14,957 nucleotides of DNA, taken from contig JACQVL010000018.1 in assembly GCA_016209865.1 (NCBI GenBank), positions 1 through 14,957 of the forward strand. Reading direction: 5' to 3'. The stretch's first letter is position 1; every line of letters begins with the position of its first letter. The notes beneath the pieces were generated by a model. The model had not been told where the DNA came from, made no database searches, and was given only the letters and a program-made list of their open reading frames with translations. Position numbers and translations under genes: made by a program. Shown piece after piece: positions 1-14,957 of this stretch. This stretch comes from Candidatus Latescibacterota bacterium. GTDB taxonomy: Bacteria; JAAXHH01; JACQVL01.

Positions 1-356
1 CCGAGATGGTCGTTCGTCAGGCTGGCCAGCGAACGGCGGGCGTAGGGGGTGCTGTCCCGCAGCAGCGTGCGGAGTTCATCGAGCGTGTTGATCGTCTTGA
101 GACTCTCACGGTCCGGGACTGGCGGGGGCACGATCTCCCAGTCGAGCACGCGCTGCGTCCAGACGAAATACCCGAAATACGCCGCGCCCGCGACATGGCG
201 CAAGACATGTCGGTAGGTCGTGGTCTCATCCCCCAGGACCGTCCGATTCAGCGTGTCCTCGTTCCATCCCTCGATAAACGCGAGAAGCGCGTTCATCGCC
301 CGTTCGTGTTCGTCGAAGAGCGCGACGACCTCGGTTCGTGATCCGGCGGCGTCCAT
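1..356 (-). CDS. DinB-like four-helix protein, 3' end cut by window edge
   Basis: The first 118 residues are visible; the C-terminus lies beyond position 1. The reading starts MDAAGSRTEVVALFDEHE and contains an R-H-V-L-R-H-V-A-G-A-A-Y-F segment at about residues 49-61. Its two histidines (50 and 54) sit in a helix, as in the DinB/YfiT putative metal-binding helical-bundle family. Many DinB-like proteins are small metal-dependent thiol transferases or have no known function, so no substrate can be given. ATG at 356 is preferred because GGGGGA lies about 8 nt upstream. An in-frame ATG at 371 has no ribosome site and lies 4 nt after the msrP stop. The gene follows the MsrP gene by about 20 nt on the same strand and is probably co-transcribed. 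Family assignment is from general pattern only; an unrelated helical protein is possible. Confidence 0.6.
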   Translation of the reverse strand, partial: MDAAGSRTEVVALFDEHERAMNALLAFIEGWNEDTLNRTVLGDETTTYRHVLRHVAGAAYFGYFVWTQRVLDWEIVPPPVPDRESLKTINTLDELRTLLRDSTPYARRSLASLTNDHL

Positions 357-375
357 GGCGATATCCCCCATTATG

Positions 376-1371
376 TCACGTCTGGTACAGATGGGCGACG
401 TACGGCGCGTAGCCGTTGTACAGCAGGGTATCCCGGTATTCCCCCGTGTCGATCATCCGCTCCCGCGCCTGCGACCAGCGGGGATGTGGTTTATACGGGT
501 TGACGTTCGACCAAAAATCGTACTCATCCGGCGCGATCTTGTTCCAGAAGGTGGGCGGCTGTTTATTCGTCACCTCGATCAACACGATCGATTTAATGCT
601 CTTGTACCCGTACTTCCATGGCGTCGCCAGCCGGATCGGAGCGCCGTGCGGGATGGTCAGCTCATGGCCGTAGATGCCCGTGACGAGGAAGGTCAACTCG
701 TTCATCGCTTCCGCCATCGTCAGCCCCTCAAAGTACGGCCACGGGTACCAGTCCTGCTCCCGCTGGCCGGGCGCTTCAGACGGCCGGAGGAAGGTCAGCA
801 TCCGGACATGGGTGGCGGACGACTTCGGCTGGACGTGGTCGAGCAGGGCCTTCATCGGGAATCCCGTCCACGGGACGGCCATCGCCCACGCTTCGACGCA
901 CCGGTGGCGGTACAGCCGCTCCTCCAGCGGCATCTTACGGACGAGATTGTCGATGTCGAAGACCTGCGGCTTCTCGACAAGGCCCTTGACCTCGACCTGC
1001 CAGGGCCGGGTGTGGAACTGATCGACATACCGCCAGACGTCTTTCTGGTCGCTGAATTCGTAGAAATTGTTGTACCGGCCCGCGACCTGTTCCGGGGTGA
1101 TCGGCCGGTCGAGCTTGAAATTCGGGTTCCGGCGGGCCGGGTAGAGGTTGCTGGTGGCCGATTTCGGGACGGAGCGTGTGGCGGATGGCTGGCCGGCGGC
1201 CGCTTGCGTCCCGTCGGCAGAGCCGTTCCGGCAGGCGCTGAGCAAGCCAAACGCCCCGATGCTGCCGAGTCCTAACGTCTTTATAAAATTCCGCCGGTTG
1301 AGGTAGACCGCTTCCGGAGTCGCTTCCCGCTCCGGGATCTCCCAACCGCGTCGGATGCGGATGAGTGGCAT
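376..1371 (-). CDS. msrP: Protein-methionine-sulfoxide reductase catalytic subunit MsrP (YedY), Tat-exported
   Basis: 331 residues, full length for the family. MsrP is a periplasmic molybdenum-cofactor enzyme that reduces methionine sulfoxide in envelope proteins. Seen here: a twin-arginine signal (LNRRNFIKTLG, RR at 26-27); the molybdenum-ligand cysteine C158 in YRHRCVEAWAMAVPW; GAPIRLATPWKYGYKSIKSI near 243-262; and the ending DEYDFWSNVNPYKPHPRWSQ, all typical of E. coli YedY. After the Tat motif comes LLSAC (C47), a good lipobox, so this copy may be a Tat-exported lipoprotein, unlike soluble E. coli MsrP. Start ATG 1371 has GGAGG 5 nt upstream. The heme membrane partner MsrQ is not next to it. 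The upstream neighbour is a second, signal-less molybdo-oxidoreductase. Confidence 0.93.
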   Translation of the reverse strand: MPLIRIRRGWEIPEREATPEAVYLNRRNFIKTLGLGSIGAFGLLSACRNGSADGTQAAAGQPSATRSVPKSATSNLYPARRNPNFKLDRPITPEQVAGRYNNFYEFSDQKDVWRYVDQFHTRPWQVEVKGLVEKPQVFDIDNLVRKMPLEERLYRHRCVEAWAMAVPWTGFPMKALLDHVQPKSSATHVRMLTFLRPSEAPGQREQDWYPWPYFEGLTMAEAMNELTFLVTGIYGHELTIPHGAPIRLATPWKYGYKSIKSIVLIEVTNKQPPTFWNKIAPDEYDFWSNVNPYKPHPRWSQARERMIDTGEYRDTLLYNGYAPYVAHLYQT

Positions 1372-1385
1372 GAGAACCTCCGGTT

Positions 1386-1521
1386 GATTTTGGATTTTGG
1401 ATTGAGAGCTTCCATAATGGATTCCCGCTTTCGTGGGAATGACATCTTTCCCTCTGCACCATAGTCACGGAGAATGAGTATGAGTTTTTCAATCCGCAAT
1501 CTAAAATCTAAAATCCAAAAT
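1386..1521. repeat. Inverted pair of period-7 arrays (GATTTTG / AATCTAA) flanking a palindrome
   Basis: The left array (1386-1404) reads GATTTTG twice plus GATTG. The right array (1498-1521) reads AATCTAA, AATCTAA, AATCCAA, AAT, which is the same heptamer on the other strand. They bracket about 90 bp that includes a dRS3-like palindrome. The composite fills most of the 161-bp gap between the two molybdoenzyme genes. It is AT-rich against GC-rich genes and has no coding potential. Confidence 0.75.
1421..1440. repeat. dRS3-like palindrome, ATTCCC-N8-GGGAAT
   Basis: The 20-bp sequence fits the pattern ATTCCC-N8-GGGAAT of the dispersed repeat first described in Neisseria (dRS3) and seen in many bacteria as 'GGATTCCCGC...GGGAATGAC'. 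Here the flanks are GG on the left and GAC on the right. It may serve as an integration target or a transcript hairpin. No T-run follows on either strand, so it is not called a terminator. Confidence 0.7.
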
Positions 1522-1532
1522 ATCTTTCCCCT

Positions 1533-2180
1533 TTATCCGTACCGTTCTTCCAGCCACGGGTCGCCGTGATTATGGTAGCCCCGGATTTCCCAGAACCCCG
1601 GCTCGTCGTACTGAACGAACCGGATCTGGCGGAGGAATTTCGCGGATTTCCACGCGTACAGTTTCGGGACGATCAGGCGCATCGGCCCGCCGTGTTCGAG
1701 TGGGATCGGCCGTCCGTCCAGTTCGTAGGCGAGGAGGACGTCGTCGTCCATCGCCTCATCGATCGAAAGGTTTGTGGTGTAGCCCTCGCCGCAGCCGAGG
1801 ATGACGTACCGGGCGGTCGGCCTGGGCATGACGAGTTCCGCGATCGTCTGGAACTTCACCCCGCCCCAGTGGACGTCGAACTTCGACCAGGTCGTGACGC
1901 AGTGAAAATCGGACACCTGGTCGACCTTCGGGAGTTGCTTGAACGCGTCCCAGTTCCACGCCATCGGGCGTTCCACGTCGCCCGTGACCTCGAACGTCCA
2001 CGTCCCGAAGTCGATCGGCGGGCGGATGCCCAGGTCGAGGATCGGAAACCCGTGGGTCAGATGCTGCCCCGGCGGCAATCGGTCCTCCCGGTCTGCCGTG
2101 GCCAGGGGCGGGCGCTCCCTCTTGAAGCGGGCCAGGAGCTTCTCCTTCGCGGAGAGCATCTTCTCGTTGAATTCTCCCAT
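1533..2180 (-). CDS. Sulfite-oxidase-like molybdopterin-dependent oxidoreductase
   Basis: 215 residues without a signal peptide or membrane segment. This is a single-domain member of the sulfite oxidase/YedY molybdopterin fold, of the YuiH-like group. The likely molybdenum-ligand cysteine is C94 in DFHCVTTWSKFDVHWGGV. GGPMRLIVPKLYAWKSAKF (164-182) matches the cofactor-binding segment of the fold, and the end GYHNHGDPWLEERY is characteristic of this subfamily. Substrate and electron acceptor are unknown. ATG 2180 has GGGAGG about 4-5 nt upstream. The next gene downstream is msrP, so two different molybdoenzymes, one apparently cytosolic and one exported, lie in tandem. The 92-bp gap upstream holds a short direct repeat (GCGGATCG) and nothing else recognised. 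Confidence 0.88.
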   Translation of the reverse strand: MGEFNEKMLSAKEKLLARFKRERPPLATADREDRLPPGQHLTHGFPILDLGIRPPIDFGTWTFEVTGDVERPMAWNWDAFKQLPKVDQVSDFHCVTTWSKFDVHWGGVKFQTIAELVMPRPTARYVILGCGEGYTTNLSIDEAMDDDVLLAYELDGRPIPLEHGGPMRLIVPKLYAWKSAKFLRQIRFVQYDEPGFWEIRGYHNHGDPWLEERYG

Positions 2181-2272
2181 AACGCCTCCCGTCTCTATCG
2201 TTCAGGGTGTCGTTAAACCCGCTCACTGATCCAAGAATGCGGATCGAGGCGGATCGGTTCCCGAAAAGCGCG

Positions 2273-3082
2273 TCACGTATCGCGTTGCTGGGACCGGGCA
2301 CGGTGCTTATACACCAGTGCTATCCCCCAGTCGACCAGGCCGGGGATGAGCGCGTTCAGGAACGCCAGTGTCTTCCCCGACGCCGAGATGATCACTTCTC
2401 GCTTGCGCTGTGCGGCCGCGTTTAGGATGATGTCTGCCACTGCCTCCGACGACATCGCGGGCCGGTCGACCCGTTGGCCCCCGCGATGCATCAGCGGCGT
2501 CTCCGCGAACTCCGTGTCCGTCCGCGTCGGGCAGACGACGATGACGTCGATGCCGTACGGCGCGACCTCTAAGCGGAGGGCGTCGGAGAACGCCTGCACG
2601 GCGAATTTGCTCGCGCAGTAGGCGGACATGTGCGGGATCGCCCGTTTCCCGACGATGGAGGAGACGTTGATGATCTGTCCGGCCCGCTGGCGGATCATCC
2701 CCGGCAATACCGCCTGCGTACACCAGATCAGCCCGTAGACGTTGACGTCCATCACTCGCCGCAGGTCGTCGGCGTTCATCTCGACCACCGGGCTGAGCAG
2801 GCCGATCCCGGCGTTGTTGACCAGGATGTCCACCCGCCCGAACGTGGACACGACCGTCTCGACCATCGCGCACACCCGGTCGCGTTCGGCCACGTCGACC
2901 GGGAGGGCCAGCGCCCGTCCGCCCGTCCGTCCGATCTCGTCCGCGACCTGCCGGAGCCGATCCTCCGACCGGGCGACGACGGCCACGGTTGCCCCTTCCC
3001 GGCCGAACGCGAGCGCGGTCGCCCGTCCGATCCCGGCGGACGCGCCGGTGACGATGACGACCTTATCGGCGAAACGGGACAT
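2273..3082 (-). CDS. SDR-family NAD(P)-dependent oxidoreductase
   Basis: 269 residues, a classical short-chain dehydrogenase. The cofactor motif TGASAGIG is at 12-19, NNAG at 89-92, the structural Asn at 114 (DVNVYG), and the catalytic Ser142, Tyr155 and Lys159 (YCASK) are all present, so it should be active. A motif-level reading cannot give the substrate. Arg38 after the second beta strand (VVARSEDR) favours NADP(H). The C-terminal stretch ALIPGLVDWGIALVYKH is hydrophobic and may attach to the membrane. ATG 3082 lies 6 nt after the stop of the RidA-like gene, so the two are almost certainly co-transcribed and perhaps coupled; no strong ribosome site is visible. Confidence 0.92.
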   Translation of the reverse strand: MSRFADKVVIVTGASAGIGRATALAFGREGATVAVVARSEDRLRQVADEIGRTGGRALALPVDVAERDRVCAMVETVVSTFGRVDILVNNAGIGLLSPVVEMNADDLRRVMDVNVYGLIWCTQAVLPGMIRQRAGQIINVSSIVGKRAIPHMSAYCASKFAVQAFSDALRLEVAPYGIDVIVVCPTRTDTEFAETPLMHRGGQRVDRPAMSSEAVADIILNAAAQRKREVIISASGKTLAFLNALIPGLVDWGIALVYKHRARSQQRDT

Positions 3083-3088
3083 GGGACG

Positions 3089-3538
3089 TCACCCATCACT
3101 CACTTCCACCGTCATCTCGACCACGACCGCCGCGTTGTCGGGCAGTTGCGCGACGCCGACGACGGACCGGACGTGCCAGCCGGCGTCTTCGCCGAAGAGA
3201 TCGGTCAACAACTCTGTCGCGCCATGCATCACCTGGGCGTGCTCGGTGAACTCGTCCGTGCAGTTGACAAACCCGGTCACTTTGACGACACGGGTGACGT
3301 GATCCAGGTCGCCGATCAACGCCTTGATCGCGCTGAGACAGCGAACCGCCGCGTCCTGGGCTACCAGGTAGCCCTCAGCGGCGGTCACCTCCCGGCCGAG
3401 TCTCCCCTTCGCCTCCGACGGATGCCCGGACGTGAACACCAGGTTGCCCGACCGGACCGCCGCGGCAACCTTGCCCTTCTCCTTTGGCGGTTCGAGCAAC
3501 TCCAGCCCCAGGTCTTCTAAGCGTTCTTCTACTCTCAC
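3089..3538 (-). CDS. RidA/YjgF-family protein (enamine/imine deaminase-like)
   Basis: 149 residues, slightly longer than canonical RidA (about 128) and like the TdcF/UK114-like subgroup of about 150. RidA proteins hydrolyse reactive enamine/imine intermediates to ketoacids and ammonia. Seen: VAAAVRSGNLVFTSGHP (about 24-40) and the C-terminal HVRSVVGVAQLPDNAAVVVEMTVEV, with Arg124 at the position of the RidA active-site arginine. The start is GTG 3538, chosen because GAGGAG stands about 9 nt upstream and no ATG fits. It is immediately followed by the SDR gene, suggesting that the pair handle the same metabolite. Whether it has deaminase activity or another Rid-subfamily role cannot be told. 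Confidence 0.9.
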   Translation of the reverse strand: MRVEERLEDLGLELLEPPKEKGKVAAAVRSGNLVFTSGHPSEAKGRLGREVTAAEGYLVAQDAAVRCLSAIKALIGDLDHVTRVVKVTGFVNCTDEFTEHAQVMHGATELLTDLFGEDAGWHVRSVVGVAQLPDNAAVVVEMTVEVSDG

Positions 3539-3647
3539 CGATGAGTGCTCCTCTTGTCAACGATGGATTTCCGCTTCCACATGCATAACCTGCTCTCTGG
3601 TCTGCATGATCTTCAAAGCGAACGGGAATAACCCTTCTTCGCTTTCT

Positions 3648-11326: not shown

Positions 11327-13228
11327 TCACTTCAGCATTGTCATCCGGCGGGTCTGACTGAACCCGGTGCTGGTCGTCAGCCGGTACAGGTAGACGCCGC
11401 TGGCCACCGGCTGGCCGTGGGCATTCCGGCCATCCCACGTCGCTCCATACCGGCCTGGTGCTTTAGGCTCATCCACCAAGCGAACCACTTCTTGACCCAG
11501 CAGGTTGAAGACAACCAGCATCACGTGCGCCTGCTGTGGCACCTCGTAGGCGATCTGGGTCGTCGGGTTGAACGGGTTGGGGCGGTTCGCCTTTAGCGCA
11601 AACGCCGTCGGCAGAGCCTCCGCCACCACCGGCTTCGCCGCCGCATTCTTGTGAATCACGATGCTCCCGCCCTCCAGCGCTGTCGTCGGCTCCGCATCGT
11701 CTCCCGCGCCTGACTGATTGTCGTACACCATCCCTCCCGGCCCCTGAATCTTGATTCGGAACTTGTCCACGCCGCCTCCACCAGACACCTGCCCATCCGT
11801 CGCACTCACCTGGAAGGTATAACTCCCACTCCCGTTGATCGTCCCCGATCCCTTGAATTTGGCCTGCGCGCCCGCGACCACCAGCCATTCGTACTGAGTG
11901 CTCTTGAAGGTCAAGTCCCCCGCTTTGAACTGAAATTGCGTATTGCCCGACGGGATCGTGGCCCCGGGCAGGTATTTGGACACGAACCCGACGGTGGCTT
12001 TGCCCGTGAGGGTGGGGTTGGCCGGGTAGGCCCCGGGCGGGGAGGTGAACCAGCCGCCGCCGGTCACAAAGCCGGCGCTCGGGTCGTAGATGACGACAAA
12101 CTGGAACGCGGCCTCGCCGGCCCCGCCGTCATCATCGGTTACCGTGAGCTTGACCGTGTAGACTCCCGCAGTCGTATACGCATGGGTGCCGCTCACGGCT
12201 CCTGAACCATTGGTTTCGGTGACCGTGCCTGCTGAGGTCGTGCCATCGCCCCAGCTCCATTCGGCCGTGTGGGTATCCGGCGTGCCGGGGTCGGAGAAGG
12301 ACGCGCTGGCGGTGATAGGCGTATTCACGCTGATGGGATCGATCGGAGCGGTGATCGCGCCCACCGTCGGGGCCACATTCTGCACGGTCACCGCGGTCTG
12401 GGCTGTGGTCGAGACGTTGCACCGGTCGGTGACTCGGACGGTGATGGTGCGGGTGCTCGGCCCGTCCAGGCCGACCGCCGAGAAGGCTACGCTCTGGCCG
12501 GGCGTCTCGAATGAGCCGTTGTGGTCCAGGTCCCAGGTGAAGGTCACAGGATGGCCGTCCGGGTCACTGCCGGTCGCGGCGACGGTCACGGTGCCTCCTT
12601 CATCCACACTATACGGCCCGCCCGCGTTGGCGATGGGCGGCTGGTTGACCACCTGGACGGTCCGGGTGGCGATCGCCTGATTGCTATGGGAATCGGTGAC
12701 GGTATACGTCCGGGTATAGGTCCCCGGCGTTTGGGTGTCCACATTACCAGTGATCACGATGGCGGCGGTGAGATCCCCATCACAGGCATCTGTCGCGGTC
12801 GCGCCCGGTTCCACATAGGGGGTCGGGCATTCCAGAGTCAGGGGATTGGCCCCGTTCAGCGTAATAGTCGGTGGGGTCGTATCTTGCACGATGATGCAGA
12901 CTTGATCGGAGGCAGTACCTCCTTTGCCATCATCGACGGTAAGGGTGACGATGGTTGTTCCCAGGGGGAACGTAGCCGTAGGAGTCGCGCTCGCAGGATT
13001 ATCAAAGGTGATCCCTGGTGCTGACCAGGCGTAGGTCAACGGATCACCATCAGGGTCGTAAGAGCCTGTGCCGTTCATAGTGACGGACGCACCGGATGGG
13101 GAAGTGCATTCAACCGTTTGGTTAGGTCCAGCAGCGGCTATGGGAGGGCGGTTCTCTGTACGACAAATTTTGACGGTTGAACACCCAACGTTATCACCAG
13201 CAAAGTCATCAATGAACAGTAAATAAAC
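11327..13228 (-). pseudogene. Secreted PKD/HYR-type repeat protein with T9SS type A sorting domain, 5' end lost at the IS
   Basis: 633 residues remain in frame up to the IS border. The frame stays open to a TAA at 13289-13291 inside the IS, without a start codon or signal peptide. An ATG at 13078 falls inside the first domain (SGASVT-M-NGTGSYDPDGD) and is not a true start. Domains in order: PKD-like (about 28-115, from PPIAAAGPNQTVEC), DUF5011/HYR-like (120-195), PKD (198-285), PKD (290-380, WSWGDGTTS...VTDDDGG), and a VTGGGWFTSPPGAY domain like those called post-COAP-1 (about 385-525). The C-terminal sorting domain carries NRPNPFNPTTQIAYEVP, VFNLLGQEV and GVYLYRL. Such proteins are exported and attached or released by the type IX system. 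The upstream half is missing; see the IS entry. Confidence 0.85.
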
Positions 13229-13245
13229 CTGTTGCGCGATAAAGG

Positions 13246-13384
13246 GGTGTTGTCCCTCAGTTGACTTGATGGGCTTGTTCAGGGCGGATTACCACTATAT
13301 ATGGGCCATAACCAAATATTGATCCCAACATGTAGTATGCCAATCCCATCGGTTTACCTATCAAGGCAGCTGAGGGACATTACC
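13246..13384. mobile_element. 139-bp MITE-like element nested in the left end of the IS
   Basis: The left end begins GGTGTTGTCCCTCAGTTGAC (13246-13273 is the full arm). The right end, on the other strand, begins GGTAATGTCCCTCAGCTGCC (13384-13357). The arms match at 23 of 28 positions. An 8-bp direct repeat, GATAAAGG, flanks it exactly (13238-13245 and 13385-13392). The AT-rich centre (about 13285-13350) has no coding potential. GGT-ends and 8-bp duplications occur in several IS families, so the mobilising family is not assigned. Confidence 0.8.
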
Positions 13385-13428
13385 GATAAAGGGGGTCCGG
13401 GTAAATTAGTCGCCGAGGAGGACTCGCC

Positions 13429-14430
13429 ATGACCCTCTACGAGAAACTCAGCCGGAAGCCGAAACAATTTTTGGCGTGTACCGGGATGCCCCTCCACCTG
13501 TTTGAGGAATTGCTTCCCCAATTGGCAGACGCGTATCACCACCAGGAGGCCCAGCGAAAACAACACGTGGTCCGCACCGGCCAGCCGCGCCACCGCCGAC
13601 CCGGTGGGGGCGGCCAATTTGCCAACGATGTGCCGAATCGCTTACTGATGTTGCTGCTCTACTATCGCCTCTATCTGACCCAAGAGTTCATGACCTTGTT
13701 GTTTCAGGCTGGTCATAAGAGTGTCATCTGTCGCGCGATTCACCAGATGCGCCCCGTCTTCGAGGCCGTGCTCCCGACCCCGGAGCGGGCCCGGCGCCGG
13801 ATCCTGGCGCTGGCCAAGAAAGAGCAGGAACGCCGCAAACGGATCGGCAGCCTCGACGAGTTTCGGGACACCTATCCGGAACTGACCTTCATCATCGATG
13901 GCACGGAACAACCCAAGCGCAAACCCCAAGACGCCGAGAAGCGCCGGTCCCACTACTCTGGCAAACGGAAGCGGCATACCCGCAAGCAATTGGTCACCAC
14001 GACGCCTTCCGGCATTATCGTGGACCAGAGTCCCTCCGTCGCTGGGCGGGTCCATGACTTCGAGGTGTTCAAGGCCGATCACGCCGCCCGGGGTGTCCTC
14101 CACGAGTTTACAGACTACCGGGTCAGTCTCTATGGCGACAGCGGCTTTCAGGGCATGGCCGACTTGGGGTTACCCGTCGAGGTCCGGCTGATGGCCCGGG
14201 CTCGGCGGAATCATCCCTTAACGACCGAGCAGCAGCAACTCAATCGGCTCCGGAGCCACACGCGCGTCCGCATTGAGCATACCCTCTCGCGCCGGAAGAA
14301 GTACCGCATCGCCGCCGAGGAGTATCGGAATCGCGATCGCGATTATGATCCGACGATGAATCTTGTGGCTGGCTTGGTGAACCTACGAGCCTATGACCGG
14401 ATCTTCCACCAAACGGGTATTCCGATCTAA
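13429..14430 (+). CDS. IS5-superfamily transposase (DDE_Tnp_4 type)
   Basis: 333 residues, intact. An N-terminal helix-turn-helix region (LLYYRLYLTQEFMTLLFQAGHKSVICRAIHQM, about 77-107) precedes the DDE nuclease core: Asp157 (TFIIDGTEQP), Asp237 (YGDSGFQG) and Glu283 (RVRIEHTLSRRKKYRI), 46 residues apart for the last pair. The basic stretch KRRSHYSGKRKRHTRKQ (171-187) is typical of this group. ATG 13429 has GGAGG 7 nt upstream. No frameshift or stop interrupts it, so the element may still be active. The MITE sits between the left IS end and this gene and may change its promoter. Confidence 0.92.
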   Translation: MTLYEKLSRKPKQFLACTGMPLHLFEELLPQLADAYHHQEAQRKQHVVRTGQPRHRRPGGGGQFANDVPNRLLMLLLYYRLYLTQEFMTLLFQAGHKSVICRAIHQMRPVFEAVLPTPERARRRILALAKKEQERRKRIGSLDEFRDTYPELTFIIDGTEQPKRKPQDAEKRRSHYSGKRKRHTRKQLVTTTPSGIIVDQSPSVAGRVHDFEVFKADHAARGVLHEFTDYRVSLYGDSGFQGMADLGLPVEVRLMARARRNHPLTTEQQQLNRLRSHTRVRIEHTLSRRKKYRIAAEEYRNRDRDYDPTMNLVAGLVNLRAYDRIFHQTGIPI

Positions 14431-14487
14431 TCCGAACACGGCCCGGGAAAACACGTCTCACAGAAAAGACACCTTATCACGCAACAG

Positions 14488-14708
14488 ATTTATTACCATT
14501 AGGCAACAGGAAACCGGGACTTGAGGCATATTCCCAAGTTTTGAGAGAAGCAGGGTTGATCTCCAAACAAGATGGGAAAGATATCATATCATGGGCTGGA
14601 ATACGGAACCATGCGGCTCATGGGGAGTGGAATGAAGTGTCAGACAAGAGTAGAATTTCGCTTATGCTGGAAGGGGTTAATCTATTCATGCGGAAATACT
14701 CCACATAA
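14488..14708 (+). pseudogene. 3' remnant of a HEPN-type (Abi-like) gene, probable integron cassette
   Basis: An in-frame reading of about 73 codons enters from the IS end without a start codon and stops at TAA 14706. Its sequence includes GNRKPGLEAYSQVLREAGLI, then IISWAGIRNHAAHGEWNEV and ends GVNLFMRKYST. The RNHAAH (about residues 44-49) fits the R-x4-6-H motif of HEPN RNases, and the surrounding helix resembles the abortive-infection-type C-terminal domain. The region is clearly less GC-rich than the rest of the window, as expected of an acquired gene. The TAA lies 7 nt before an attC-like site, the normal arrangement of a gene cassette. The 5' part was lost at the IS. Function (toxin or antiphage RNase) is inferred from the motif only. 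Confidence 0.65.
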
Positions 14709-14715
14709 GGTTGCA

Positions 14716-14842
14716 CCCTAACAACGCGTTGCAGGCCGACTGGAACCGCGTCCGGTTTTTGCCGCCCCGTGCTGAGTGTCACCCCTGTGCCTGTCGTCCC
14801 GTCTGCGTTCGCGGTGCCAGCGGCTGAGCGCGGGTGTTAGGC
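14716..14842 (+). other. Integron attC recombination site (candidate)
   Basis: The left simple site CCCTAAC (14716-14722; consensus RYYYAAC with one departure) pairs with the right site GTTAGGC (14836-14842; a perfect GTTRRRY). Inside, CGCG...CAGGCCGAC (14725-14740) is complementary, with bulges, to CAGCGGCTGAGCGCG (14818-14832), as in the L boxes. The left half, TAACAACGCGTTGCAGGCCGA, closely follows known attC sites of the TAACAA...GTT..A.GCCGAC type. At 127 bp it is within the known size range. No integrase gene is in the window. Confidence 0.72.
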
Positions 14843-14957
14843 CGCTCCCCCCCTCGATGCTCCGCTGCGCGGGCGGCGTGGTTGCCCGCCCCCCCGCCGG
14901 GTCTGAGGCCGCCGCTGGCCTGGCCGCGTGGGGTGGGAGTGGGTGCGTCTCCGGGCG
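14843..14957. other. GC-rich sequence after the attC site, no feature recognised
   Basis: 115 bp of very GC-rich sequence with C-runs. An ATG at 14857 opens a frame to the window edge, but it has no ribosome site and a low-complexity product. It could be the start of another cassette or plain flank. Confidence 0.3.

Follow-up and report, generated by a model that had tools for sequence, protein, structure and literature searches.

The window (the whole stretch of DNA analysed, 14,957 nucleotides) belongs to a fragmented draft genome of 3.75 Mb in 356 contigs, 83% complete, in which joins at repeats may be wrong. It carries an IS5-like insertion sequence (IS) with a MITE nested in its left end. 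To the left of the IS, a minus-strand gene for a PKD/Ig-like surface protein with a FlgD-type C-terminus (11327-13224) is cut by the IS on its N-terminal side. A sequence of the form CCCTAACAACGCGTTGC...GTTAGGC at 14709-14846, which has a strong hairpin on its bottom strand, looks like an integron attC site and lies behind a gene end (...IRNHAAHGEW...) matching no Pfam family. The features of the IS and the MITE were assigned as follows.

13225..14491, plus strand: IS5-like insertion sequence, 1267 bp with the nested MITE and 1120 bp after subtraction of the MITE and one duplication; ends AAACCTGTTGCGCGATAAAGG and AAATCTGTTGCGTGATAAGG, with the same ends and a length of 1122 bp in relative L042
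13225..13245, plus strand: IS left terminal inverted repeat, intact; the outer target duplication forms its last 8 bp (from comparison of IS ends)
13238..13245, plus strand: 8-bp target duplication GATAAAGG, outer copy (exact repeat)
13246..13384, no strand: MITE, 139 bp, no gene; further copies in C260, C312 and C114 (from arms and repeat copies)
13246..13273, plus strand: MITE left terminal inverted repeat, GGTGTTGTCCCTCAG... (from arm pairing)
13357..13384, minus strand: MITE right terminal inverted repeat, GGTAATGTCCCTCAG... (from arm pairing)
13385..13392, plus strand: 8-bp target duplication GATAAAGG, inner copy (exact repeat)
13429..14430, plus strand: transposase gene, 333 aa, uninterrupted (Pfam DDE_Tnp_4, 2.7e-22; relatives L042, 71%, and L043, 57%)
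14472..14491, minus strand: IS right terminal inverted repeat (from comparison of IS ends)

The ends of the 139-bp segment are inverted over 28 bp, with 23 of 28 positions matching (82% complementary). Arms were tested at exact 8-mers spaced 60-400 bp apart. Among the 203 identical pairs at this spacing in the window, a single pair (13238/13385) bounded arms matching at 23 or more of 28 positions. Window shuffles with the same first-order composition (200 first-order Markov shuffles) gave a best arm match of 17/28 versus 23/28 in the real sequence. The arms and the exact 8-bp duplication are far beyond chance, and the 28-bp arms with exact GATAAAGG borders given in a preliminary description were borne out. 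Short, non-coding, without a transposase gene and with terminal inverted repeats, the segment is a MITE by structure; the target site duplication is seen on both sides of the sole complete copy, the other copies being truncated.

Further copies of the MITE were located in the same genome. The copy in C260 is identical over all 113 bases present and that in C312 matches at 98 of 101, while C114 holds the first 50 bp without a difference (50/50; within C114:1-71), inside the left end of another IS copy. All three are cut by contig ends; the window copy is the sole complete one and alone shows both duplications. Similar copies were found at several unrelated sites (C40, C260 and C312, plus the IS end in C114). 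In C260 and C312 unrelated DNA without IS sequence begins where the MITE ends; the junctions read ...ATTACC directly followed by CATCTTTT, and CAGGATCG directly followed by GGTGTTG. Such boundaries with unrelated DNA are as expected of independent insertions. The 139 bp form a repeat of their own, distinct from the IS.

The host transposase matched PF13359 (2.7e-22) and PF01609 (2.2e-14), both over the cut-off, and is of the IS5 DDE type; against NCBIfam transpos_IS5_4 it scored 68.7 bits, under the cut-off of 140. The closest relative found (L042, in a Pyrinomonadaceae draft genome) shares 71% transposase identity, and a second (L043, in a Bacteroidetes draft genome) 57%. Both relatives have terminal repeats and ends as in the window IS, and are flanked by 3-bp target duplications (ACT/ACT in L042, AGT/AGT in L043); at the window copy the triplets do not match, with AAT before the IS and ATT after it. 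The host is classed as an IS5-like element with a DDE_Tnp_4 transposase, and its relatives show 3-bp duplications. Its subgroup, which we take to be ISL2/IS1031, is resembled in the single DDE transposase, the terminal repeats of about 20 bp and the 3-bp duplication (ANT in L042 and L043). With about 1120 bp and 333 aa, the window IS exceeds in length the members of the ISL2 group given in PMC3196728 (914-991 bp, 275 aa).

Neither relative carries the MITE, and none was found in the remainder of their genomes. Subtraction of 147 bp (the MITE and one duplication) reduces the window IS to 1120 bp, against 1122 bp in L042, and leaves 53 bp between CTGTTGCG and the start codon, against 54 bp in L042. 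The expectation that this deletion restores a compact IS was confirmed accordingly. The preliminary description had also asked for an IS copy lacking 13246-13384, a segment that the related IS of L042 and L043 do not have, and had held that the segment would be an original part of the IS if all IS copies carried it, which is not the case across these two relatives. With the independent copies, the related IS without the segment and the matching length after subtraction, nesting of the MITE in the IS is well supported.

The insertion point was redetermined. The IS starts at 13225 (AAACCTGTTGCGCGATAAAGG), and the MITE begins 21 bp inside it, rather than 17 bp as first described, at the inner edge of the left terminal repeat. 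The target GATAAAGG is itself the inner end of this repeat, with the MITE directly behind it. The outer duplication copy therefore belongs to the terminal repeat, and the IS end is complete. A sequence similar to GATAAAGG had been ascribed to the IS terminal repeat; at the other IS end it reads GATAAGG.

Two IS left ends were found in the genome, both with the MITE. The second, in C114, carries it at the same base as in the window, lies beside proC and adjoins other DNA on its outer side. Right ends of the IS were found at four sites (C40, C114, C1 and C69), that in C69 adjoining an mraZ-like gene; gene names beside IS ends were read from translations alone. C114 also contains, at 1-3580 (L055), a 3.4-kb stretch with prfA-, hemK- and proC-like genes and an IS end on either side. 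A further match to the IS end with 2 mismatches (C19:45239) sits in apparently ordinary gene sequence and was rejected. The MITE is unlikely to have inserted twice, independently, at one and the same base, which makes movement of the loaded IS the simplest explanation. Judged from these sequences, the loaded IS has most likely moved since the MITE inserted, and transposition would be the cause of the second loaded copy in preference to recombination.

Taken as a whole, insertion of the MITE into the IS, with the MITE then travelling as a passenger of the IS to one or more further sites, is very probably the right explanation. A transposase acting in trans and generating 8-bp target duplications would have mobilised the MITE, which would have landed in the IS precisely where the left terminal repeat ends on its inner side. 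As the outer duplication completes the repeat, the IS would have retained both ends and its transposase gene, and the loaded IS would then have taken the MITE along. We infer this order of events, with MITE insertion preceding movement of the loaded IS.

The presumed MITE transposase, not found in the draft, would have to make 8-bp duplications and recognise GGTNNTGTCCCTCAG ends. Families making 8-bp duplications include IS256, IS1595 and IS6. The 83% complete draft was searched by end pattern and with transposase models of these families, and no autonomous partner was found, including the autonomous IS with MITE ends that had been suggested as a check; the model search gave one IS256 match, sub-threshold. 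The single-end pattern with 1 mismatch gave 33 matches versus 15 for the reversed control, and those outside the MITE formed no credible pair within 1.5 kb. None of the three families can be chosen as the mobilising one. Paired MITE ends were not found in viral contigs or in 85,000 species genomes by a search that required exact 10-mers and so misses diverged copies. Neither MITE nor IS was found in 15 other genomes of the phylum, nor their DNA in plasmids, and Rfam gave no match.

An alternative that accepts the MITE in the IS takes the loaded end in C114 for an assembly artefact or a product of homologous recombination, in which case the loaded IS need not have transposed. The genome is a draft whose contigs break in these repeats, and the window copy of the IS gives grounds for caution: its flanking triplets are unmatched, whereas AAT stands at every other IS end in this genome and the relatives have identical triplets on both sides. 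Its two flanks are unrelated, and no continuation of the PKD-domain gene interrupted on the left is seen on the right. The mismatch and the uncontinued gene suggest that the window IS has recombined with another copy or is a misjoin of two loci; recombination or misassembly is likely here. The left-side MITE junction is, on the sequence of C114, unaffected. Against the alternative, the outer flank of C114 abuts the IS end directly with AAT, as expected of an ANT duplication, and no flank is common to C114 and the window. This alternative is considered unlikely, with perhaps a minor share of the probability, and movement of the loaded IS is preferred.

An effect of the MITE on the transposase, driving or silencing it via a promoter or hairpin, is improbable. 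Between the MITE and the start codon lie 44 bp, and the MITE folds strongly as RNA (-55.5 kcal/mol, z -5.35), as any element with inverted arms does. The stretch holds a single promoter-like match, which faces away from the transposase and is close to the chance rate; no promoter towards the transposase was seen, and the new promoter proposed earlier was not upheld. Nothing supports the silencing that had been proposed: the terminal repeat is intact, and the second IS left end, with the same MITE site and different flanks, argues against silencing of transposition. The IS right ends at four sites also show that the IS spread, with the timing not indicated.

A stronger claim, that the MITE has a preference for the inner border of this IS's terminal repeat, that it regularly spreads by hitch-hiking on IS transposition and that in this genome the loaded IS has taken the place of the empty one, is given slightly less credence still. 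A reading in which the segment has belonged to the IS from the start, as an extended subterminal region, and the copies elsewhere are IS fragments agrees with the presence of the segment in both IS left ends of this genome but is hardly credible, being largely refuted by what the sequences of L042 and L043 indicate, with L042 of the length predicted without the segment, and being opposed by the exact 8-bp duplication and by C260 and C312, which break off precisely at the MITE boundary and have no IS sequence past it.

The element is comparable to MITEAba12 of Acinetobacter, a 113-bp non-coding element presumed to rely on a resident IS for its transposition in trans (PMC6382973). Both are short and non-coding with imperfect terminal repeats and target duplications; MITEAba12 differs in its 9-bp duplications and resident parent ISAba12, whereas here the duplication is 8 bp, the ends are unrelated and no parent was found.

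The MITE family was not found elsewhere in the collections searched, and the lineage is sparsely sampled (16 phylum genomes). Nesting of mobile elements is common. The locus adds no new mechanism and is ordinary but tidy nested mobile DNA, a clean case in which a small element loads an IS and leaves the IS ends unbroken.
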